Source: Cephalotus follicularis (Eukaryota > Streptophyta > Magnoliopsida > Oxalidales > Cephalotaceae). Taken from it: 64,000 nucleotides of DNA. The position numbers and the translations under genes were made by a program. The stretch spans positions 93,678-157,677 of the forward strand of contig BDDD01001503.1 of NCBI GenBank assembly GCA_001972305.1, in the 5' to 3' direction. This document shows positions 4,990 to 64,000 of this stretch, in pieces (position 1 is the stretch's first letter; the number at the start of each line of letters is the position of its first letter). The notes beneath the pieces are model-generated. The model did not search any database. It had not been told where the DNA came from and saw only the letters and a list, made by a program, of their open reading frames with translations.

Positions 4990-6180
4990 ATATACGTACT
5001 GTGTGCCATGGTGTCACGCCTAAGCAGTACGTCACGTATGCGTATATGCCATGCGCCCAAGTTAGCGCCTGACTACACAAGTACCGAGCATGTCGTGCGT
5101 TACCATGTTACGCATCTGAGCATGGCTTCCATATGCCAACGTGCCGAGCATGCATCTCGGCATCCATGCGCTTGAACAGTGCGCTCACCGCATGACTGAC
5201 GTGCCGAGCTCTCCATTGTAGACGTCCTGAGCGTGCGTCTACCGCATGCCCGACGTCTCGAGCTCTCCACTATATGCGCACCAAGCACGTAAGGCGCCGA
5301 CCATTATCATGCAATGGCGCCAAACTATCCACAGTGAACACCTGAGGAACCAAGCAGGTGTCTGAGCATGCATGGAAAGTGACCGAGCTCGCCATGCTAT
5401 GCGTCTGAGCGTAGCATAGCGCCAGAGCACGCCTTGTGCCGATGTGCCATGCGCCGAGGTGCCATTGCGCCGAGGTGTGCCAACCATGGCCTTCCACTGC
5501 CAAGGTGCCGAGGATGCGCCGAGGAAGCGCCCTGTCGTGCATGCGCTGAGGATGCGTCCGACGACAAGCGTCCGAGGATGCGTCAGTGTGTCGCATACAT
5601 CCCGAGCTCCCTGGCTAAGTGTCAAGCTCAACACTGAGGTGCACCGAGCTTGCCAAGTGCTGAGCACCAAGTGCCGAGCTCTACACCATGAATGTCCGAG
5701 GAGCCATGCGCCGAGGTGCCATGGTGCCGAGGATGCAAGGCGCCGAGCTCTCCTCTGCCAAGCGTCCAAGGATCCAACCATGGTCTTCCACTGCCATGGT
5801 GCCGAGGATGCCATTATGCCATGGCGCCCAAGAAAGCTATGCATGCGCCTGAGCTCGCTTCATATAGGCATCCAAGAAGAAAAGGTGCGCAAGTGAGGAA
5901 ATGCATGTGTCCGAGATGGCGCTCGTGCGTGGCATGCATGCGTCCCAAGCATGCATGCGTTTAAAATACTGAGATGACGTCTAAGTGTGCATGGCCAACT
6001 CCTGCATGCATTCCTAATATTCTACACGTGCGCCCAAGTGCCGAGATGACATTTAAGCACACCATGCATGCGTCCGAGCATGCATGTGCCCAAGCTACGC
6101 GTCACAGTACTCTTGCATGTGTCCAGAGCATGCAAGATACGCAACAAACAGTGCCCTGCATGCGCCTAGCATGGGCTTTT
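4990..6180 (+). repeat. GC-rich degenerate motif array inside the solo LTR
   Basis: About 1.2 kb is made of short irregularly spaced repeats, mainly TGCCGAG(C/G) with CTCTCC, GCCATG(G/C) and ATGCATGCG-TCC variants, CpG-rich against AT-rich flanks. Several open frames cross it on both strands, but they translate to low-complexity Cys/Arg/His/Ala-rich strings unlike any family and are by-products of the repeat. It lies downstream of the LTR TATA box, so it would be transcribed as leader. Confidence 0.75.
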
Positions 6181-6608
6181 GAAAATTTTTTTTTTTTTTT
6201 TGGAAAGTTCAGTATATATTAATGTAATTTAGATAAAGGGGGTCTTTATGCCTTCCCTTGTACAGAGGCTAGAATGTCACAAAAGCCAACGCTTACAATC
6301 CCATCCCAAAAACAGAGACAAAACGTGACTATCTCTTGCACTTTCTTTCTATCTCTATCTAATTACAGAAGAATTAGAAACCAAAACAGCTATCATTCTC
6401 AAACTGCACATGAACTCTACAGAGACCAGGGACCTAAAAACTAAACAAAACAGTGCAGCCCAAGAGGGGCACATCAAGCCCAAAGCATAAATGGGCACCT
6501 GCATCCAAATGACCCCCACAGTTCAAGCAGTACCCAGCCAAAATCCTTCATCCGCTTCAGTACACAGCGCCATCAACAAAACACAATCCTCCCATTCCAC
6601 AGCCATGA

Positions 6609-7785
6609 TCAACGCCTTCCATTGCCAAGCCGTGCGCCACCCAACCCCGAGCCATAGCCAGAGCATGGTCGAAAAATATTCTCCTCAATCTCCCAATTGT
6701 CCACGATGGACCTGTTGGTGGGAGTGTCTATAATGCTCATACACATGGCGGCCTTCCTTGCTATATATGAAGTGATGCGAGCTAGCAAAACACTAGGGGA
6801 GGCCGCAGATTGCCTGAAAATAATATTGTTTCTCTCCCTCCAACAGTGGTAAACTGACGCTGCAAGCCCTGCTCTTCTCATCCACAAGTGGAACTGATTT
6901 CCTATAGAGTGATCCAAAGCCCATGTAACAATGTTTTCCCAGTTCCAAGCAGCAGGGAAAGGACAATTGTTAAGATGTAACACTTTACTCCAAATACTCT
7001 TGGTGGATGGACACTGGAAAAAGAGATGGTCTATTGATTCTTGTTGCCCGCATCCAAAAGGACATAGACTGCTCTGAACAATACCGAGTCTGTGGAGTTT
7101 GTCCCGTGCGAAGTGAGCCTTGCGGAAGGTGAGCCACAAACAGAAGGCATGCCTTGGAATGGCGCCACTGAACCAAACAATCTTGCCCCATGGAACCAGA
7201 GGGACAGCCAATCTAGTGGACTCCCATGCCAGTTTGAAAGAGAACGCCCTTCCCACCCTACGCCAGCCAATAGCATCCCTCTGCCCAATTTGACTGTCAG
7301 AGCACGCAGCAACTATATTCCTCAGCTGCCACACATGAGCTGGCCAATTCCATCTCGCATCCTGGATTACCTCTGATAGTGTGGTATCGCGTGGCAACCC
7401 CGAGTTATAGATGGCCCTATTCCCTACCCTCACAAACAAAGGACAGTTTTGGAACCAGGGATCGTGCCAAAGGGACCATGTAGAATTGCGTCCAATGGTA
7501 TATACCAGGTTAGCTGAGACAGGTGTACGGAGTTTCAGGATGCGTTTCCAAGTGACGGATAAAGACTGCTTCCATTCAATCTGCCAGAAAGATCGACCCT
7601 TGAGAATTTCATCTTTACACCATCTTACCCACAAAGAGAGCCTATCCGTTAGAATGTCCCATATTAATCTCATCACTGCTGCTTTGTTGCAATCCGCAAC
7701 CCTTCTCAACCCAAGGCCCCCTTCAACCTTAGGTTTACAAACCTGTGACCAAGAGACTTTTGATCGTTTTTTGCCTCTAGCTCCT
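6609..7785 (-). pseudogene. LINE polyprotein, C-terminal zf-RVT part
   Basis: This is the same reading frame as the RT at 7789-9239, separated from it by one in-frame TGA (about 7786-7788) where the family usually has Trp (FL-stop-AGARGKK). It continues with the conserved WSLWHDPWF block. Near its C-terminus is the zinc-binding domain of plant LINEs: CPFGCGQQESIDHLFFQCP, a Cys-Cys-His-Cys pattern, followed by WRERNNIIF. The domain follows RT in plant L1 elements and is thought to help RNA binding. The single stop makes the copy non-functional. Confidence 0.8.
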
Positions 7786-7788
7786 GCT

Positions 7789-9239
7789 CAGAGAAAACCT
7801 CTCATGATTTTCTCACATTCCTGCATGGTCTCTTTAGGAAGGACCGCATTGTGAATCCAGAAATTTTGGATACCGGAAAGGGTGGCTTGAATAAGCTGCA
7901 ACCGGCCTGCGAAGGATAGGCATTTGCTGGTCCATGTATTGATCTTGTCAACCAACTTCAACGTAAGGCATTTACAATCCATGGCTGATAGTCTCCCAGA
8001 GACAAGTGGGAGGCCAAGATATCTGAGCGGCAAAGTGCCAACCTGCATACTTAAGGCTCTACAAATCTGATCCCTGGTGCTGCTTGGGGTGTTACCAAAA
8101 ACAACAGAGCATTTGTTAATGTTTAAAGACATACCAGCAGCTTCCAAAAAGCGATTCAGACCTTCAAGAAGAAGCTTAACAGATAGTACATCAGACTGGG
8201 AAAAGAAGAGAATATCATCAACAAACATTAAATGAGTAACACCCGCCCTTTTGCATCTGGGGTGGAACCGAAAGCCAGCCGACTCAGAAGCAGCTTTAAG
8301 GGAACTAGATAGGGCATCCATGGCAAGGACAAAGAGGAAGGGTGATAACGGATCACCCTGTCTAAGTCCTCGTTTGCCTTCAAAGAAGCCACATAAGCCA
8401 CCATTCACTGCCACAGAGAAGGAGGGAGAGGTGATACATGTTTTGATCCACAACACAAAATTATCAGGGCACTCGATGGTATTCAACAGGAGGAGAATGA
8501 AGTCCCAACTAATGGAGTCGTATGCTTTGTGTATATCCGTTTTGATCGAGCATCTCGGAATACCCCCTTTCTGTTCATATCCCCTGAGGAGCTCCTGAGC
8601 AATAAGAACGTTATCCCTAATAGCTCTCCCTCGGATAAAACCCGCTTGTGCAATATCAACAAAGTCAGCAAGAATCAGTTTGAGCCTTCCCGCAATGAAC
8701 TTGGACAGCACTTTATAGAGGAAGTTGCAGCAGGCAATGGGTCTATAGTCATTGATGCAGTTTGTGTTCTTCTGTTTGGGAACAAGGGAAATAATGGTAG
8801 CGTTTAGACCCTTTGGCATATATGGATGATCGAAGAAGAATCTGCAAGCAGCTATCAAATCCTTTCCCACTATCCCCCAGACTGATCTGAAAAAGAAGCA
8901 ATTAAAGCCATCCGGACCCGGCGCTTTTTCAGGGTGGAGAGCCCAGAATGCATCCCTGATTTCTTCATCTGTTATTCCCCTGCCCAACAAAACTTTTTGT
9001 GCCTCCGATAGCTTCTTCGAGTAGTCGAGATTAGAGACGGCGTGAGGAGCCTGCACTCCCAGGAATTCTCTAAAGTGTTCCACAGCCACCTGCTCAACCT
9101 CTGCCTGTGTGCAAGCCCAACTGCCATCTGACTTTAGCAATCTGTCAATGTGATTTCTGTGGTGTAGGGAAGCAACAGATCGGTGAAAGAATTTTGAGTT
9201 GGAATCTCCAAGCTTGAGCCAAGTAATGCGGGATTGATA
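7789..9239 (-). pseudogene. LINE reverse transcriptase domain
   Basis: The reading begins at the truncated edge (ITWLKLGDSNSKFFHR, about 9228-9180) and covers the non-LTR RT domain. Recognisable blocks are YRPIACCN, AGFIRGRAIRDNV (fingers), the GLRQGDPLSPFLF turn, and the catalytic FVDDILFF box, the LINE version of YxDD. It ends at an in-frame TGA before the zf-RVT part. LINE RT copies its own RNA directly onto a nicked chromosome end in the nucleus. The endonuclease that would make the nick is absent. Confidence 0.85.
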
Positions 9240-11959: not shown

Positions 11960-12320
11960 AACAATGCACAGGAAGATTGACCGAAGACGTCCATGTCCTT
12001 GGACAAAGACGTCGACGCGTTTCAATAAAAATAGCTTGGAAATGCGCATCGATGTTCAGCATCGATGTCTTCTCTGGGGAGAAGATATCTCAAGGCAAAG
12101 ACGTCGATATCTTTCAAAGACATCGATGTCTTTGCTGCAGAATTAAGGATGTTGCACTCTAAAGCGAAAGACATCGATGTCCATGGGCTGGGGATCGATA
12201 TCTTTGCTAGGCATGGTCGATTTTTGTGCAGAAAACCAGCAAATCTCAAGTCAAAATCCATTTAAAACCCATTCTTTGAAAACCAAGGGTTAAAATCGGT
12301 CTTTTAAGGTTAATAAAACT
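11960..12320 (+). repeat. Orphan LTR fragment carrying a GACGTCGATGTC palindrome array
   Basis: This stretch aligns, in the same orientation and largely base for base, with 45880-46200 inside the right LTR of the gypsy element at 36906-46789. The match includes the ATCGATGTTCAGCATCGATG block and the CCATGGGCTGGGG block. It contains about eight copies of GACRTCGAYGTCTTT-like palindromes. Neither LTR end is present, so it is an internal scrap of that LTR family. Confidence 0.8.
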
Positions 12321-21483: not shown

Positions 21484-21990
21484 TCTTCCTTTTGAAACGG
21501 TTTTACTCTATTATTGGGTAAAAAAAAATTAGATTATAAAATATTTAAATGATTTTTTTATTAATTTTATTTATAAAAAAATACCCTTTTGAAACGGAGA
21601 ACTCGTTTCAAAATGGTCTATATTAATATTTTTTACTTAAAAAAATCACCCTTTTGAAACGGATAGGCCTTCCGTTTCAAAAGAGTGTCTTTTGAAACGG
21701 AAAGACCTATCCGTTTCAAAAGGATGCCTTTTGAAACGAAAGGCCAGGTCCGTTTCAAAAGGCGGCCTTTTGAAACGGAAGGCCTATTCGTTTCAAAAGA
21801 CACCCTTTTGAAACGGAAGGCCTATCCGTTTCAAAAGGTACTTTTTGAAATAGAAAAAACCGTTTCAAAAGGCTTTTGTTACGCCACTCAATTGAAATTC
21901 CATTCTTCCATTTCAAAACCGTTTCAAAAGACCTTTTGAAACAGAAAAACAGGCCTTTTGAAACGGATTCCATCCTTTTCAAAAGGCCTA
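21484..21990. repeat. Subterminal foldback array of CCTTTTGAAACGG motifs
   Basis: About twenty copies of CCTTTTGAAACGG and its complement CCGTTTCAAAAGG alternate over 500 bp, many paired head to head around GGCCTATC or GGAAGGCC centres. The array abuts the CACTA terminus at 22003. In CACTA elements, repeated subterminal motifs of this size bind the transposase accessory protein. The RNA would fold strongly on itself. Confidence 0.75.
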
Positions 21991-40814: not shown

Positions 40815-42614
40815 TGTAACGCCCGATATTTTCCTGAATGTAATATTTCGATTTATGATGTAATCTTAAATTTGGAATAATGAGAATGTTGAGTTTTGGA
40901 CTCAAAAGTATGCTTAAAACCCTATTTATGGTCATGGAATTTGGAATGTGTATGTTAAGCTTGAAACGGCAACATTCTGGGACAAAGACATCGACGTCTT
41001 TTGGAAAGACGTCGACTCCTTTGGGAGCCAGGGCACACGTGAAGGAAGGACATGCACGTCGACTTTGGAAGAAAGCATCGACACCTCCTTACCAAACTGG
41101 AAAAGACATCGACGTCTAAGGAAAAGACGTCGACGCCTTTGTAAGAATGGCCAGCACGTTCTTCGTCGGCAGAAATGCATGTGGGGAGGATTGTTTAAGG
41201 CTAGACTTGCGTACTGGTACTCCCTGGTATGAAAAAGACATCGACGTCTTTGTGAAAGACATCGACGTCTTTGGTCCAGAAAAGCCTGGGAATAATTGTA
41301 CATAAGATTTACACTTTAGGCTAAAAGACATCGACGCCTTGGGGAATGACGTCGACGTCTTTCCTCCTGGACAGTAGAACTTCACATGAATGAGAACCGT
41401 TAGACCCAGAACGACTCTAGAAATGAACCTAGATGCATTCTGAGCATATGATTGCATTGTTACTATGACTTGCATTATGGTTGCTTTCCTAAAAGTGTTA
41501 AACCATTTTGAAAAGCTTGCACGATTATTATGATTATTTGGGTACGAAAATGTATATTTGTCAAATTATGAATTTATATATATATTTTTGAATTGCTTGG
41601 GGTTTGGTTATGAAACCAAATGAAATTTACGAAAATGTATAATTTATGAATATATATATTTTTGAAATGATTGGGGAAGTATTTCCAAAGACAGAGATAT
41701 GTATTGTTTTAAGCTTACGACTTATTACAACTTGTGAATTGAAAAGTATATTTTAAACAAATATATTTGATCAAGTAATTATATGTAATTGCTTGACTTG
41801 TGAAATGCTTGTGCTTGTGGATTATCAGCCATCGTGCTGATAACTTGTTGATTACTCAGCCGCTGTGCGGGTAACTTGCTGTTGGTTTAGCCGCCGTGCT
41901 AAGCAACTTATGGAGGACTTGCTCTAAAACCGTTCGCAAACGGGGATGGAGTGAGAGTGCGTGACGTTGAGGCCAGGAGGTGGCGACGGTTATGACGACT
42001 GGACTGTCTGGTTCCTTTTTGGGAACATATTTACTGCTTGTGTTAATATAACTTGAGTTATACTTGTATTGTGAACATGCACATATTTTTATATGTACAC
42101 ACGGAGGTATTTTACTGTGAAAATTACATGACATGGCTCATCATTATGCATTCACTCATGATACTCATTGCCTTATTACCTGAACTGTATTTATGGGTTA
42201 TTCACTTAGCCGAGTGAGGACAAAGGCTAACCCCTACTGTAACAGATTGATGGAGGGGTCTTGACATGGAGCATGCACGGAGATTTAAAGAGAAGACTTA
42301 TTATTTTCTCTTATTTTGGGTTGTTGAACATTTATCATGTTATTTGGTTTTGTAACGTTGGATATTTGTTATCTTGTATTGTATATTTCTCACGCTCCGT
42401 TTGGGTGATCAACAGTTCTAGGGATATTTATAACTTGTTGGGCATCACGTAGTTTGGGATGCGTGATGTGTTTTTAATCCGGCTTAATCTGAAATGCTTC
42501 CGCAAGTGATTAGTGGATACAGAAAGCTTAAATTTATGATAAAAATTGTATAAGCCGGGTTTATATGTTGATTGCTTTACCACTATTATATGATTTGAAA
42601 GACGGGGTGTGACA
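40815..42614 (+). mobile_element. Solo LTR with a GACATCGACGTC array, TSD GGAAC
   Basis: Its ends are TGTAACGCCCG (40815) and GGGGTGTGACA (42614), with duplication GGAAC at 40810-40814 and 42615-42619. It is 1800 bp. A palindrome array lies at 40978-41365. The distal half (CTCACGCTCCGTTTG, CTTCCGCAAGT, AAGCCG blocks, about 42390-42570) resembles the end of the Tekay-like LTR at 24214-27212. It inserted in the opposite orientation into the gypsy protease-RT junction. Confidence 0.92.
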
Positions 42615-44506: not shown

Positions 44507-46789
44507 TGTAACACCCCGTGCCCGCAGGGCGGACACGTGGCATTACTCTCAATCTAATACACAATACAATGGTCGGGACTAGAAATATAAAAATGCGAAA
44601 AAACTTAAAACTTTACAATACATATCATTTTGTGGAAGATACGATACAATAATCCATCCATACGGTGCAATACAATACAAATCCTTTACAATACCAAACT
44701 TTTACAATACACTTATCAAAGCAATATTACAATGAACTCTGTCAACTCCAGACGATCCCCTCAGTTGATGGAATCTTTAATCCTTCGGTCCGCTGCTACC
44801 TGCTGCCCTACCTATGCCGCACACAAAATGTACAACACAGCCCCACCCCGAAGGATGGGGTTAGCCACACTGGCTAAGCAGAAACCTCATACAGGGTGTA
44901 TGCATGTACAATGTGCAATATCGGTGACAATCTATGCAATATCAATGTGCGGTGTACAATATCAATGCATGGCATGGCAAATCCATATGCACAGTTGCGA
45001 TCAGACTACCCATATGACAATGGCCCATAATAGAGCATACGGATAGGATCTATAACAATCAATCAATGGAAGACACTCAATGGTGGTGTATAAAACACCC
45101 ACTCAATCAATCAATCAATGTCCTATAGAGCATGCAACCCCGGGTCAATACAATGTCAATCAGTTAGCAGTGATCAATCCCACGGAAGGTAATCCTTCGA
45201 AAAGGGTGGGAGATCTATCTATGTTTCTCAGATTGATCAGGACCATAACTCATAGATCTTCCAACCTATGGCTGGGCCAATGCAATCTCGATGAGCTACA
45301 ACCGAGGGAGCTACTGTTATCGTTAGGGAGCTACGGCCCTCAGGGAGCATCAATCGTCAATCAATCATGCTCGTCAGCAAGACAATACAATAAGTGGAAC
45401 AATACAAGAAATAAAACGATCGACGGAATAGGTGGACAGAGTCAAAAATCTAACTTGCCGACACGAATCATAAGGCCGCTCTATAGGATCCATACAATAC
45501 AATCAATCATGTCAGTACAATGTCAAAGCAATGTCAATAAGTGATGGTGTCTAATGAAGAAATGGGAATGTGCGTCCAATATACCGACTTAGACTCACAT
45601 CACTTATGACTCAAACAATCAATCAATGTGTCAATACAATCGTTAAAACCATTTTCAAACACTTGAACACCTCAAGTGAGGCTCCAGTCAAGTAACAATG
45701 AGAAAAGAAGTTGAAAACCAGCTTTAAAGTAGGTAAAAACTCCTTTCAGTCTATTAGGCATCGATGTCCTTGGTGGAAGACGTCGACGCATTTTTAAAAC
45801 GGTGGAAAGACGTCGATGTTTGAAAGACGTCGATGTCTTTCTCTATTTGTAAAGAGATCTGGCTGAAGGACGTTGATGTCTTTGAATAAAGACGTCGACA
45901 TGATTCAATAAAAGTAGCCTGGGAATGCGCATCGATGTTCAGCATCGATGTCTTTCCTGGGGAGAAGACATCTCAAGGCAAATACGTCGATGTCTTTGAA
46001 AGACATCGATGTGTTTGCTGCGAAATCAAGGATACATCATTCTAAAGCGAAAGAGATCGATGTCCATGGGCTGGGGTCGATGTCTTTGCTGGGCAGGGTC
46101 GATTTTTGTGTAGAAAAAGTGGCCAATCTCAAGTCAAAATCCAATTCAAAGCCATTCTTTGAAAACTAAGGGTTAAAATCAATCATTTAAGGCTAGTAAA
46201 ACTTGTTACAACCTTTCAATTTCAGTTTCAATCCTTCTAGATAAGTTAGATCAACGAAACCAATAAAAACCCTAGTTTTTCAATTTTATGCAATACAATC
46301 ACTCAATCATTCAATTCAATCATTTAATCAATCAAGCAGTAGGCAATTCAAGTAAAGAAGTCCTACCTATAATCGAAACTTCAAAAGTTGAGCTTCCAAT
46401 CAATCCATCGACTGAAATCACCCACGAATCAGCTGCTATCTCACCCAAACGGTGACCCACAACTTGCAATCGCTATCCTTGATGATGGAGATGCAATCTG
46501 GGACTGCTAGGGAGGAAGATGGAGGTTGCTCAGCTAGAGAGAGAGAGAGAGGGAGAAGGATAGAGAGAGGGAGAAGCATGAGAATATGAGAGAATGAGAG
46601 TAAGAATTGACTTATATAGTCAATTCGGTCAATTATCCGAAACTCAGCCCAAAATCCCAACTATACATGCATGTAATAAATACAATAACCAATATGTATA
46701 GGAATACCTCAATTCAATACAATTCAATACAGTCCAATACGGTATAAAATATGCATGAACAGTACAAAAAGGGAATTCGGGTCTTCACA
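44507..46789 (-). repeat. Right (5') LTR, 2283 bp
   Basis: Full-length form: complement starts TGTGAAGACCCG and ends GGGGTGTTACA. A TATA box (ACTATATAAG) lies at 46620-46611, about 170 bases from the LTR start. The palindrome array at 45760-46095 lies downstream of it, so it is in the transcript. A fragment of this LTR family is at 11960-12320. Confidence 0.9.
45760..46095 (-). repeat. Palindrome array, GACGTCGATGTC type
   Basis: About ten copies of GACGTCGAYGTCTTT-like motifs in both orientations, spaced 15-40 bases. The same motif occurs in the SIRE-type LTRs, which belong to a different superfamily. Confidence 0.8.
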
Positions 46790-55684: not shown

Positions 55685-57015
55685 TGAACTTTTTGCAATT
55701 TTAATCTAACAAAACAATGAACAAGTAAATCAAGCAATAACAATAAAATCAACAATTTAAAGAGAGAGAGTTAGAGTGTTTGCAAACACTATTTTTAGAG
55801 TGGTTCGGCATAACTCTTGCCTACGTCCACTTTTCCCAAGGATCTCCTTGAGTTTCCACTAATCTCCGAATACAATTCCGGGTGCTATTTGGTACACCTT
55901 TGTGATTGAACTCAATCACTTACAACTCTCTTGGGTTCACTCCCCAATTTCTTTTAGGGTTCACTCCCCTTTTACAATCAAAGTAGATAAAATAGTGTTT
56001 CGATCTAAACCTCTCACAAGGTTGGATTTTACAAGATAAATTCGCTCAATTTAAGAGAAAACAGAAATGGGCTAAGATATAAGATTGAAGCTTTTTGAGA
56101 ACTTTAGAGCACTTGAGCTTTTGTGGAACTAGAATGCTTGAATTGATCTCTCTCTTGTTGTTGTGTAATTCTCTTGTTATTTCTCTATTAATTCTCTCTT
56201 CTTGTCTTCTCAGAAGGTTTTGAATCTTCCTTTATATAGACAAAAAGTCTTGTAGCCGTTGCATAAATCCTGGGAACTTTAGATATAAAAATGTGTTGAT
56301 GCAACTTTGTTTTTGTGTCTGCTGAGATGAAGATGTCGATGTCTTTAGAAAGACGTCGATGTCTTTGTCTGTTACTAGCCGTTGTAAGTGCGTTAACTAG
56401 CCGTTCCTTAATTCCTGGGTCAATCAATTTAAAAAGACGTCGATGTCTTTTATAGGCGTCGATGTCTTTTCTATGAATGTATCCAGGCATTTGAAGTTAT
56501 GTGCATCACATCGACTTCTTCTTCAAGGGTCGATGTCTTTTCTGGCTTTTTCAGTTGAGTCTAGAAACACGTCGATGTCTAAGGAAAGGGATCGATGTCT
56601 TTTGTTGGACGTCGATGTCTTCTCAAACAAGGATCGATGTCTTCACTCAAAATCGACCTGTAACTTTGGTAGCTCAAGACGTCGATGTCTTCTTGAAAGG
56701 GATCGATGTCTTTTGTTTGGACGTCGATGTCTTTACATATAAGGATCGATGTCTTTGCTCAAATTCGACCTGTAACTTTGGTGCACTAAAGACGTCGATG
56801 TCTTCCTGCAAAGGGATCAATGTCTTTCACCAAAAGTGGCCTGTAACTTTGGTATGTCAAAAGCGTCGATGTCTTCATGAATAGGGATCGACGTCTTTTC
56901 TATGCAGCTGTCTTTTGCCTTTTGTGACACTTTCTAACATCTTGCACATTAAGTGAACTTTGTTAAATGCAAATATGTTATCATCAAAACTAGGATTGAG
57001 ACTAAATCGTTAACA
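55685..57015 (-). mobile_element. SIRE-type copia solo LTR, TSD CCTTG
   Basis: It is 1331 bp, bounded by CCTTG (55680-55684 and 57016-57020). On the complement it begins TGTTAACGATTTAGTCTCAA and has TTTTGATGATAACATATTTG, as in the LTR at 59555. A TATATAAAGG box lies at about 56239-56229 and the GACGTCGATGTC array (56330-56900) is upstream of it. The other end has a GGGAGTGAACCC-type segment. No internal sequence remains. Confidence 0.92.
56330..56900 (-). repeat. Palindrome array in the SIRE solo LTR
   Basis: About eighteen copies of GACGTCGATGTCTTT or GGATCGATGTCTT, spaced 20-45 bases, in the U3 part. Longer repeats (ACCTGTAACTTTGG with flanking palindromes) recur about three times, so the array grew partly by duplication of 100-bp blocks. 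Confidence 0.8.
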
Positions 57016-59100: not shown

Positions 59101-59554
59101 TCTAGCAGAAAAACCGTAAACATACATAGTACCTCCCACAATAGAAGAAGACTCTGGAACCTCTGTCTGGGTGAGAATGAAAACTCTACCTTTCACGACA
59201 CCTTTGCCGGTATCTCTTAGCTGTGACGGTCCAGCGACAGTTACACTGCCACTCGCTGGCCCTGTAGGTGCTGTCGTCTGGCCCTTCGGGCAATCCCTCT
59301 CCATGTGGCCAGATTCCCCACATCTCATGCACAACCCTTTATTCAACCAAGAGTCTCTCTGAATGTGACCCATACGACTGCAGGCAGAACAAGCTCCAGG
59401 CCTCATGTTACTCCCTTGACTGGCAGACTGATTGGATCTATTCTTTGGTGACTTTGTTGGAGAACCGCTGCCCTGCCATTTCGATGATGCTGGCCTAGAC
59501 TAAGTAGAGGTCTGTTTACCCTGTTGTAGTCGGGCCCTCTCGGCTCGGTCTTTA
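59101..59554 (-). pseudogene. Gypsy element 2 Gag C-terminal zinc knuckles
   Basis: Two knuckles are visible: CSACSRMGHIQRDS (about 59388-59350, last Cys replaced by Ser) and CMRCGESGHMERDC (about 59325-59285, intact CX2CX4HX4C). They are followed by a Pro/Thr/Gly-rich linker to the protease. The rest of Gag would continue on the far side of the SIRE element that inserted at 59555, beyond this window. Confidence 0.8.
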
Positions 59555-60839
59555 TGTTGACGATTTAGTCCCAATCCTTGTTTTGATGATAACATATTTG
59601 CATTTGACAAGTTTACTTGATGTGCAAGAAATTACAAGTTCAATACCAAGGCAAAATACCATCTGCAGAAGAAGACATCGACTCTCAAGAAATGACATCG
59701 ACGTCCGTACAAGAAGACATCGATCCCTTCCAAAAAGACATCGACGTCTTTAGTGCAAGATCAAATTATAATGAAGACATCGTCCTTCCAGTAATGACAT
59801 CGACGTCCGTACAGAAAGACATCGACTCCTTTATAAAAGACATCGACGTCTTCAGTGACAGAATCTACTGTTCAAAATGTGCAATAAAGACATCGATCCC
59901 TACATGCAAAGACATCGACGTCAGTACAAAAGACATCGACACCTTTCCATAGACATTGACGCCTTTCTAGAGCTACCTGCATTTCCCAGAAAAGACATCG
60001 ACCCCTACAGAAGAAGTCGATGTGATGCTCAAAGTTTCAATACCTGGACATTTCCCAGAAATGACATCGACGCCTTTAAAAAGACATCGACGTCTTTTTA
60101 AATGGTTTGACCCGAGAAACATGGAACGGCTAGTTGGCGCACTTTCAACGGCTAATAACGGAAAAGAGATCGACGCCTTTCTAAAGAAGTCGACGTCTTT
60201 ATGTCAGCAGGAGACAATATTCAAAGATTGCAACTACACATTTTTAAATCAAAGCTTCAATGAATTATGCAACGGCTACAAATCTTTTATGCCTATAAAA
60301 GGAAGACTGAAACCTCAGAAGCAAATAGAGAACAACACTGAACTACATCAATTCAACAAGAATCACACAATCAAGAGAGATTTCATATTCAAGCATTCTA
60401 GTGTGCAAAAAGCTCAAAGTGCTCAATAGTGTTCTAACAAGCTTCTAAGCCTTATCCTTTGAAATTTTCTGAGTGTTTCATATTGAGAGCTGTATTATTC
60501 ATATCAACCTATTTGAGAGGTTATCTTGTAAACACTTTCACATTTTACTTGTAAAAGAGGAGAATCCTCTAAGGTCTTGAGGTCAAGGTCTTGTGATTGA
60601 GGTCAATCACGAAGTTGTAAGGTGTAACGAATTGCTGCCTTAATCAATTCGAGAAAGTGAAAACTCAAGGAGCTCCCTTGGGAAAAGTGGACATAGGCAA
60701 GAGTTAGCCGAACCACTCTAAATTCGGAGAAGTTTTTCTTTCCCTTCACTATTTACTTTGAAAGTTTTTAAATTTCCGATATTTACTTCAATATTCAATT
60801 CACCCCCCCCTCTTGTATATTGCAAGAGTGTTTATTTCA
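59555..60839 (+). mobile_element. 5' LTR of SIRE-type copia element 2
   Basis: It begins TGTTGACGATTTAGTCCCAA and ends about TTTATTTCA at 60839, followed by the primer site. TATAAAAGG lies at 60294-60302. The array of GACATCGACGTC palindromes (59660-60200) fills the U3 upstream of it. The transcript leader includes CACCCCCCCCTCTTG near the end, as in element 1. The element runs off the right window edge. Confidence 0.88.
59660..60200 (+). repeat. Palindrome array in SIRE LTR 2
   Basis: About twenty copies of AAGACATCGACGTC(T/C) or half-sites AAGACATCGA(C/T)CCC, spaced 15-40 bases, ending about 100 bases upstream of the TATA box. Confidence 0.8.
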
Positions 60840-60841
60840 AT

Positions 60842-60855
60842 TGGTATCAGAGAGG
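60842..60855 (+). promoter_or_regulatory. Primer binding site of SIRE element 2
   Basis: TGGTATCAGAGAGG just after the 5' LTR, complementary to initiator tRNA-Met over the first eleven bases. It lies about 40 bases upstream of the gag ATG at 60897. Confidence 0.9.
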
Positions 60856-60896: not shown

Positions 60897-62537
60897 ATGG
60901 AATTGAATATGTCAAACAAGGAAAGCATATCCATCTCAAAGCCTCCATTTTTCGATGGAAACAACTATAGTCATTGGAAGGCAAAGATGACTATATTTAT
61001 TCAAGCTCTTGACTTCAACCTATGGGACATCATTATTGACGGCCCAGAACTTCCTCACATCATCTCGCAAGAAGGTATCAAAACCCTCAAACCGAGAAGC
61101 TCATATACGGATGATGATCGCAAGAAGGTACAATTAAATGCTAAAGCAAAACACGTTATTATATGTGCCTTAAATTCAAATGAATTCAATAGAGTATCAT
61201 CATGTGCTACCGCAAAAGAGATGTGGGATAGATTAGAGGTTACCTACGAAGGAACCAACCAAGTCAAGGATGCAAAAATAAATATGCTTGTAAGAGAATA
61301 CGAAATGTTCTCTATGAAGGAAAACGAAAACATTTTCGGTATGTTTGTTAGATTTACAAATATTATTAATTCTTTACAATCTTTGAATAAATGCTACACT
61401 AATAGTGAGATGGTAAGAAAGATACTTAGGTGTCTACCGAAAAGTTGGATGCCTAAAGTTACGGCTATAGAGGAAGCTAAAGACCTCAACACCTTGCCGC
61501 TTGAAGAACTTCTTGGATCACTCATGACACATGAAATGACCATCAAAAACCATGAGGATGATGAAGAACAAGATAAAAAGAAGAAGAAAGTCATTGCATT
61601 CAAGTCATCTACACCGAACTCAAGTGAAGAAGATAGTGACGATGAAATGGCTTTAATCACAAGAAGATTCAAGAAGTATCTAGCAAAGAAAAGGTTTGGG
61701 AACAAACAATTCAAGAAGACATTCCCCTCAAAATCCGAAGCAAAGAAAGAAGAAATAGTTTGTTTCGAATGCAATAAACCCGGACATTACAAGAGTGAAT
61801 GCCCAAGATTGAAGAAAGCAAAAGACACTATCAAAAAGAAGAAGGCTATGCTTGCTACTTGGTCGGATAGTGATGAATCAAGTTCCGAAGAAGAAGAAGA
61901 CCAAGAAGTAGCACAAATAGCATTGATGGCTATCAATGATAGTGATAAGGATGAATATGAAGATGAAGATGAGAATGAGGTAAGTGAACTTCTTGAATTA
62001 CTTGAGAAATTCAGTTTAGAAAACAATTCTCTTAAAAAGGCCATCAAAGCACTTAATAAAGAAAATGCTAGTATAAAACATGAATTAGAATGCTTATCTA
62101 ATAAGTCACTAGATGATAAGATTATTTCTTTAGAAAAAGAAAATGAGACTTTAAAAGTTGAAATTGATGCTCTTAAAAAGACTTTTTCAAAATTTTCAAA
62201 TAGTAGTGAAAAACTTGATAAACTCTTAGGTCTTCAAAGATGTGTGTTTAACAAGGCTGGCCTAGGTTATGATGAGATGAATAATGTTAAACATTTTCAA
62301 AAATATCTTGAAAAGAAGGATAATCAAAAGATCTCATCTAGCATGACTTGTAATTATGGCAATAAATATGGCCACACTACACACACTTGCTATCGCAAGA
62401 AAAATGACATGCACAAGAAAAACTTGTTATTGAAAAATAAATTGTTGAAGTTAAGAACTATATGGGTTCCTAAAGGAACATTTTTTACTAACCCCCCCGG
62501 ACCCAAAGCAACTTGGGTACCAAAGTCTCCAACATAA
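60897..62537 (+). CDS. gag: SIRE-type copia Gag, 546 aa
   Basis: The start is ATG at 60897, the first in the frame after the primer site. Residues about 15-210 form the copia Gag region (PPFFDGNNYSHWKAKM, WDRLEVTYEGTNQVKDAKIN, ILRCLPKSWMPKV). A Lys/Ser-rich linker leads to a zinc knuckle CFECNKPGHYKSEC (about residue 288, intact CX2CX4HX4C), an acidic stretch (about 320-365) and a coiled coil (about 365-445). A second knuckle near residue 485, CNYGNKYGHTTHTC, has Gly in place of the second Cys. The frame is open to TAA at 62535. Long Gags with coiled coils are typical of the SIRE/Maximus lineage. It forms the cytoplasmic particle. Protease follows in another frame. Confidence 0.9.
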   Translation: MELNMSNKESISISKPPFFDGNNYSHWKAKMTIFIQALDFNLWDIIIDGPELPHIISQEGIKTLKPRSSYTDDDRKKVQLNAKAKHVIICALNSNEFNRVSSCATAKEMWDRLEVTYEGTNQVKDAKINMLVREYEMFSMKENENIFGMFVRFTNIINSLQSLNKCYTNSEMVRKILRCLPKSWMPKVTAIEEAKDLNTLPLEELLGSLMTHEMTIKNHEDDEEQDKKKKKVIAFKSSTPNSSEEDSDDEMALITRRFKKYLAKKRFGNKQFKKTFPSKSEAKKEEIVCFECNKPGHYKSECPRLKKAKDTIKKKKAMLATWSDSDESSSEEEEDQEVAQIALMAINDSDKDEYEDEDENEVSELLELLEKFSLENNSLKKAIKALNKENASIKHELECLSNKSLDDKIISLEKENETLKVEIDALKKTFSKFSNSSEKLDKLLGLQRCVFNKAGLGYDEMNNVKHFQKYLEKKDNQKISSSMTCNYGNKYGHTTHTCYRKKNDMHKKNLLLKNKLLKLRTIWVPKGTFFTNPPGPKATWVPKSPT

Positions 62538-62554: not shown

Positions 62555-62872
62555 GTGTCACCAAAGAGAAATCGTTGGTACCTCGATAGTGGTTGTTCCA
62601 AGCACATGACGGGTAATAAACGCCTATTTATAACTTGGAAACCGAAAGACGGAGGAAACGTAACCTTTGGAGACAATACAAAAGGACAAATTGTTGGAAC
62701 CGGCTCTATAGGTAATAAAGATATCTCTATTTCTAATGTATTGCATGTAAAAGGACTCAAACACAATCTCTTGAGCATAAGTCAATTATGTGACAAGAAT
62801 TGTAGAGTTATTTTTGAAAATACTTCATGTAGAGTTGTAGACAACAACAATAACGCTACTAAGTTTATTGGA
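62555..62872 (+). CDS. pol: SIRE-type copia protease, start of pol
   Basis: After a 17-base gap from the gag stop and in a different frame comes SPKRNRWYLDSGCSKHMTG, with the aspartic protease site DSG (about 62584-62592). VTFGDNTKGQIVGTG and LKHNLLSISQLCDKN follow, the standard copia protease blocks. How pol is expressed relative to gag is unclear (frameshift, or a lesion in this copy). Recognisable + strand coding stops at KFIG (62872). The continuation is present but written in reversed letter order. Confidence 0.85.
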
Positions 62873-64000
62873 GATTATGGAACAACTTACAGTGGTTACT
62901 ACCGAAGTACACCCACCAGAGATTGTTGGAACATTCAGAATAGATATTCAAGAAAAACCATCGATAGGAATCCAAATTGTAGATACAGAGTGGCTTCCAG
63001 GTACTTTTAGATATGATAGTACGTGTACACTTCTTCTTAGTACGTTGAGTAGTTTTTTTTGTACGTATCTAAGAAGATGATTATTTCATGCGAATAACTT
63101 TGTAGATATTCGAAATGATCTTTCCCTCATCGGTTCTTTATATGGAAGTAGGCGAAATCTTAGTTTGAATGGTTCAACTAGAAAAGGTAACAACACATAC
63201 TTCGTAAATGTAGGCTTCCGTGCTTTCATTGATTATAATCCGAAAGAGAGGAAGGTATTGAGCATACCTCAGAAAAACTCTTATCCGGAATAACTACAAG
63301 ATAAGTTTTATATCGTACGCCACAAACACCGAAGCCGGGTTTTTATGAAACCATTTAGTAAAAGCGTTTCGTAACAAGATCAGTAAAGAAGTTTTCAAGA
63401 TAAAGAGGAAAGTTGTTGAGGTAAAACAACTCCTCAGGATCCCCAACTTTTAAGTACAAATTTTGGTAAAAATTACGTTATTAGTAGTTTTTATAATAAA
63501 AGTTTAAGAAACGGTACCAGTGAGGATTAAAAGTTTTATCTTTCAGGAAAAAGAAAAACTTGTTAAAATGTTTTTAACCGTTTCTTCCATTTTCAAAGTG
63601 AAAATACACGGTTTTTTATTTGGGTACACATGGATCACATTAGTAGTTGTTATTGTATCCGTATTCTAAATGGAGGATTCGAAGAATACAAATAACCAGG
63701 TTTTTCCAGGTATACCTCATCAAGCTCACCGGATCTTCAACGTTGTTACAACCATCCAAATTTTGAACGAGAATAAACGAAAGGAACAACCGTTCGTAGT
63801 GTGTTAAATAGAAAAACTTTTGAGTTAAAACCTTCTGGAAATTGATCCAGTACAAAGTTTTTAAAACGTTACCAAGAGTATGAGTGTACAGGTTCGGAAG
63901 ATACGGTGTAGGTTGATAGAAGTAAATTCCTCTGTTCCGTAAAATGTAAAACTAAAACTTCCAGTAAATTTAATTATTGTATTTGTAACGGAAGAGAAAC
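62873..64000. other. Mirror-reversed segment containing copia integrase
   Basis: Neither the + strand nor its reverse complement encodes a known protein here. Reading the + strand letters backwards from 64000 to 62873, without complementing, gives an open copia pol frame. It has GAG-pre-integrase MWHRRLGHVSM, zinc-finger LCDACQQGK, and the three catalytic blocks HMDLFGP, RSDHGKEFEN and GVVERRNRTFEEM. KTPYELW and FLGYS follow, then, after one frame change near 63000, HPHEAIIGD. The first backwards codons (Q-R-E-G-N-V-Y) join in frame to KFIG at 62872. The reversed block therefore ends at, or continues past, the window edge. Natural inversion gives the reverse complement, not this. Confidence 0.93.

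Follow-up and report, generated by a model that had tools for sequence, protein, structure and literature searches.

A copia integrase region in mirror order beside an assembly gap in Cephalotus follicularis

The closest described systems are the programs that close or narrow scaffold gaps. LR_Gapcloser adds sequence from one edge of a gap and writes what remains of the estimated gap as N (PMC6324547). PBJelly, according to the sections of its paper that were consulted, extends contigs into gaps that stay open, and keeps apart those extensions for which no overlap can be identified (PMC3504050). The consulted part of the DENTIST paper states that the sequence inserted by gap fillers is often inaccurate (PMC8848313). 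In the literature, at the level of titles and the openings of abstracts, we found no report of gap-edge sequence that is reversed and uncomplemented.

We describe here a case of this kind. The window, that is, the whole stretch of 64,000 nucleotides that was analysed, corresponds to G000:C1503:93678-157677 in an assembly of 1,577,397,061 bases and 9,746 contigs. Its last 1,128 bases (62873-64000, no strand assigned), when read in reversed order without complementing, are the pre-integrase/integrase/SH3 region of a copia (Ty1-like) element. This block is most likely an assembly artefact, and not a biological feature.

The host element and the mirrored block

Ahead of the block, a copia element is written in normal order, with all its features on the forward strand. 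The 5' LTR (59555-60839) has TG...TTTCA ends and identical 5-bp flanks; the target-site duplicate CTTTA precedes it at 59550-59554, and its partner follows the 3' LTR at contig positions 163447-163451, beyond the window. These matching CTTTA duplicates on either side of the element indicate that a single insertion spans the gap described below. The primer-binding site TGGTATCAGAG, read directly in the sequence at 60842-60852, is of what we take to be the initiator-Met tRNA type. It is followed by gag at 60909-62537 (Pfam Retrotran_gag_2, 2.4e-30; zf-CCHC, 1.3e-4), and by the start of pol at 62555-62872 (Pfam Pol_BBD, 7.6e-23), which ends at the boundary of the artefact. The TG..CA LTR ends and the 5-bp target-site duplication are those of a Ty1/copia LTR retrotransposon. 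Along the element, gag (Retrotran_gag_2) and Pol_BBD come first, and rve follows within the reversed block.

The two LTRs are 98.3% identical over the 411 bases that match, which is all of the shortened 3' LTR that pairs with the 5' LTR. At about 163008-163040 of the contig, beyond the window, the 3' LTR is without some 1 kb of interior sequence that is present in one relative (L029); this may reflect either a genuine deletion or another collapse in the assembly. A separate observation concerns the motif GACATCGA, of which the window holds 45 copies, compared to about 1.7 expected, in five clusters (12062-12181, 40987-41334, 45761-46084, 56336-56873 and 59674-60090). Since one of these clusters falls within the 5' LTR, the remaining ones may represent further LTR copies, either of the same kind of element or of related ones.

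The block itself could be read in 12 ways (four orientations, three frames each). Only one reading contained a long open stretch, namely the mirror frame starting at 64000, with 341 codons; the second longest, on the reverse complement, had 103. The 341 residues matched three Pfam families, gag_pre-integrs (1.2e-20), rve (8.9e-17) and SH3_retrovirus (1.5e-24), and the closest solved chain by sequence was 7z0h_W, 'Integrase' (E 1.5e-19), which is presumably the Ty1 integrase. No significant match to Pfam, searched up to E 1, was obtained with the six frames of the block as given, the lone match having an E value of 0.09, under its curated cut-off. Dinucleotide composition was altered as well: the CG and GC odds were 1.12 and 0.31 in the block, compared to 0.71 and 0.99 in the rest of the window, an exchange of the two values that follows from mirroring, which requires these dinucleotides to be swapped.

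The exact position of the boundary was obtained from copies of the element elsewhere in the same genome. Seven relatives were fetched from a set of 40 scored matches that counts the window itself (5,263 candidates at first look), and the forward flank and the reversed block were searched against them as separate queries. In all seven, the reversed block began one base after the forward flank, so that the boundary is exact. The full 1,128 bases aligned, with one gap, at 94.1 to 95.4% in four of the relatives, and partially in the three others (811 bases, 101 plus 519 bases, and 61 bases). Wherever this region was present in the seven relatives, it was in normal order.

A chance origin, through low complexity or a simple or mirror-symmetric repeat, is ruled out by these data, and we give it practically no probability: all 1,128 bases align at the above identities in four relatives, Pfam matches reach 1e-24 in the mirror reading only, and the open frame and the dinucleotides point the same way. 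A first reading of the DNA, made from the sequence only, had already recognised 62873-64000 as a mirror-reversed copia integrase, with which the mirror frame, its three Pfam domains and the alignment of the relatives agree. Two details of that sequence-only reading have to be amended. It took the backwards reading to be continuous up to an HPHEAIIGD motif; the 341 open codons are there, but a frameshift follows codon 341 and HPHEAIIGD lies in the next frame. One base of the block near this frameshift is absent from the four full-length relatives and from the copy found after the gap. It also had a protease frame ending at 62872. The junction is indeed at that position, but the flank scores as Pol_BBD, and its frame runs open across the boundary, by chance, to 63010. 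The flank (62555-62872) does contain an LDSG motif, which we take to be protease-like.

The gap and the sequence beyond it

The letters of the assembly and those of the window were the same, with no mismatch over 2,178 compared bases (L009) and none in an overlapping segment (L001). On the contig, a run of 1,518 N (157678-159195) begins at the base after 64000, that is, at window position 64001. The anomalous block thus ends exactly at an N run, and the coincidence of its end with that of the window is accounted for by the start of the gap, with no edit of the window needed.

The sequence past 64000 was inspected, as the sequence-only reading had proposed. The reversal does not continue: after the N run, contig positions 159196-160195 carry the element in normal order, and match bases 127 to 1128 of the reversed block (1,002 bases) at 98.2%. 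Since the element resumes at block position 127, only about 126 of its bases are missing.

This copy after the gap was the closest to the block among the copies compared, with 1.7% difference over 1,000 columns. The four full-length copies differed by 5.1 to 6.2% from the block and by 6.1 to 7.3% from the after-gap copy, and for a copy on another scaffold, C7995, the difference to the block was 2.5% (685 columns). At thirteen columns, the block and the after-gap copy shared a state that all four full-length copies lacked. The block and the after-gap copy differed from each other at 19 columns, gaps included, and at 11 of these the block agreed with all four full-length copies. To judge by these sequence comparisons, the block may therefore derive from the other allele, or from an extension built on mixed repeats, rather than from the same molecule as the after-gap copy.

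Could the mirror order be a real rearrangement of the plant genome? The single point in its favour is that the letters are present in the assembly. DNA strands are polar, and breakage followed by rejoining yields direct or reverse-complement order only, so that mirror order is excluded as a product. In addition, the sequence resumes in normal order past the gap, and this block, like the second one described below, ends at a gap edge. We regard such a rearrangement as extremely improbable.

Mirrored sequence at another gap edge

Among the seven relatives, the one on scaffold C7995 proved to carry a mirrored block of its own, of about 1.1 kb (about C7995:20590-21688). It lies at the right edge of a run of 2,611 N (C7995:17979-20589), and normal sequence begins at 21689. 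In the extracted segment L030 (G000:C7995:15000-24999, where position 5591 is C7995:20590 and position 5640 is C7995:20639), mirror matches were found at 5640-6432, with 76.6% identity to C1503, and at 6445-6689. The mirrored content consists of a piece of LTR and another repeat. As it does not continue the adjoining copia element at its inner end, this extension is misplaced or chimeric as well as reversed. The artefact thus recurs at another gap of the assembly, one that was chosen for its mirror match.

This second block bears on the possibility that the first was altered on purpose. Such a planting would account for a block ending exactly at the window edge, and for a long mirror for which no natural process is known to us. 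The sequence-only reading had offered a deliberate alteration as one of its two explanations. An edit confined to the window would be absent from the source assembly and would not yield a second block on another scaffold. Both blocks are found in the copy of the assembly that was analysed, the second one outside the window and beside a gap, and the window edge coincides with the start of the scaffold N run. We therefore consider a planted alteration very unlikely. The data-handling fault that the same reading had named is supported, and is narrowed to the assembly by the presence of the block there, its end at an N run and the second block elsewhere.

Orientation was also assessed from composition, using a strand-symmetric six-mer score trained on window positions 1-59000 only. 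A blastn search (E 1e-3) of this training stretch gave no match for the window block; for the C7995 block, it gave two short ones, of 134 and 68 bases. Among 518 control windows of 500 bases, taken outside the window, the mean score was 0.125 (standard deviation 0.069, minimum -0.084). The values were -0.091, -0.132 and -0.133 for the window block, and -0.122, -0.171 and -0.085 for the C7995 block. With broader training, the blocks stood further from the controls (-0.162 and -0.169 for the window block, -0.119 and -0.167 for the C7995 block, compared to a minimum of -0.079 among 972 windows). These broader-training scores, like the segmentation, are not homology-free, because the training loci include normal copies of the element.

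A two-state k-mer orientation segmentation was run over 333,215 bases, a few kb of which were represented twice. It called mirrored order in two stretches only, C1503:156504-157672 and L030:5591-6600, the latter starting at the first base after the C7995 gap. Within the window, no mirrored stretch was called outside the block at its end.

Six N runs, of which one is a lone N, provided 12 edges, the 18 padded bases at the end of C1503 being excluded. Two edges were mirrored, one was doubtful (a gap of 25 N on scaffold C8639) and nine were normal. As the C7995 gap was examined for its mirror match, the proportion of 2 out of 12 carries a selection bias; the nine normal edges indicate that the fault is not universal. 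The doubtful edge is the right edge of the 25-N gap, from position 7282 of L037 (G000:C8639:27000-36999). Its orientation score (-0.065 or -0.058) falls close to the low end of the controls, and it was not among the stretches that the segmentation called mirrored. A mirror match of 36 bases at 97% was noted there between L037 positions 7375-7410 and 7882-7917, 500 bases apart. It is possible that this edge is a third mirrored case.

A probable origin and its comparison with known systems

The explanation that we consider very probable is that a gap-filling or contig-extension step wrote an extension of the flank, of about 1.1 kb, in reversed order and uncomplemented. In such a scenario, the software would have extended the left contig by about 1.1 kb into the scaffold gap, and the order of the bases would have been reversed on writing while the bases were left uncomplemented. 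The 1,002-base overlap of this backwards extension with the far contig would then have gone unrecognised, the gap would have been left open, and a run of 1,518 N would have been recorded for its leftover length. At this place, the plant's own DNA would be a copia LTR retrotransposon of the ordinary kind, in normal order. The mirror, its exact boundary, the adjoining N run, the normal-order copy past it and the second block are observed. The C1503 gap fits an extension whose reversed overlap the opposite contig could not match; from this it is inferred that the error arose in gap filling or contig extension, and not in some other program, and that this kept the gap open. Points against this explanation are the nine normal edges, the C7995 content that does not continue the neighbouring element, and the absence of such a bug from the literature surveyed. 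An operator's mask is another conceivable source of the 1,518 N, though the missing part of the element amounts to only about 126 bases.

We consider it somewhat more likely than not that a gap-closing or extension bug of this type affected many gap edges of this 1.58-Gb assembly, which would then carry reversed and uncomplemented sequence; other public assemblies built with the same program may perhaps be affected too. If the bug is widespread, the databases would hold a hidden class of 'mirror' DNA that ordinary aligners miss. Mirror blocks evade homology searches and resemble unique, unannotated DNA with spurious open reading frames, so that they can be mistaken for novelty. If the above is true, such DNA could be found without homology by the six-mer orientation test; since the fault recurs on a second scaffold and is detectable from composition alone, public assemblies could be screened for it.

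Compared to the known systems, the locus resembles the output of LR_Gapcloser (PMC6324547) in combining an extension from one edge with leftover N; it differs in the reversal, as the consulted section of that paper mentions no reversed output, and its main text contains neither the word 'reverse' nor the word 'complement'. With PBJelly (PMC3504050), the likeness is an extension into a gap that stays open, with no overlap recognised, and the gap threshold of 25 N given in the consulted sections, one gap of 25 N being present on scaffold C8639; reversal without complementing is not among the behaviour described in those sections. As for the element, its gag, Pol_BBD, pre-integrase, rve and SH3 domains, as identified by Pfam, are those of a Ty1/copia retrotransposon, and it departs from an ordinary member of this group in that the assembly gives 1,128 bases of its pol in backwards order.
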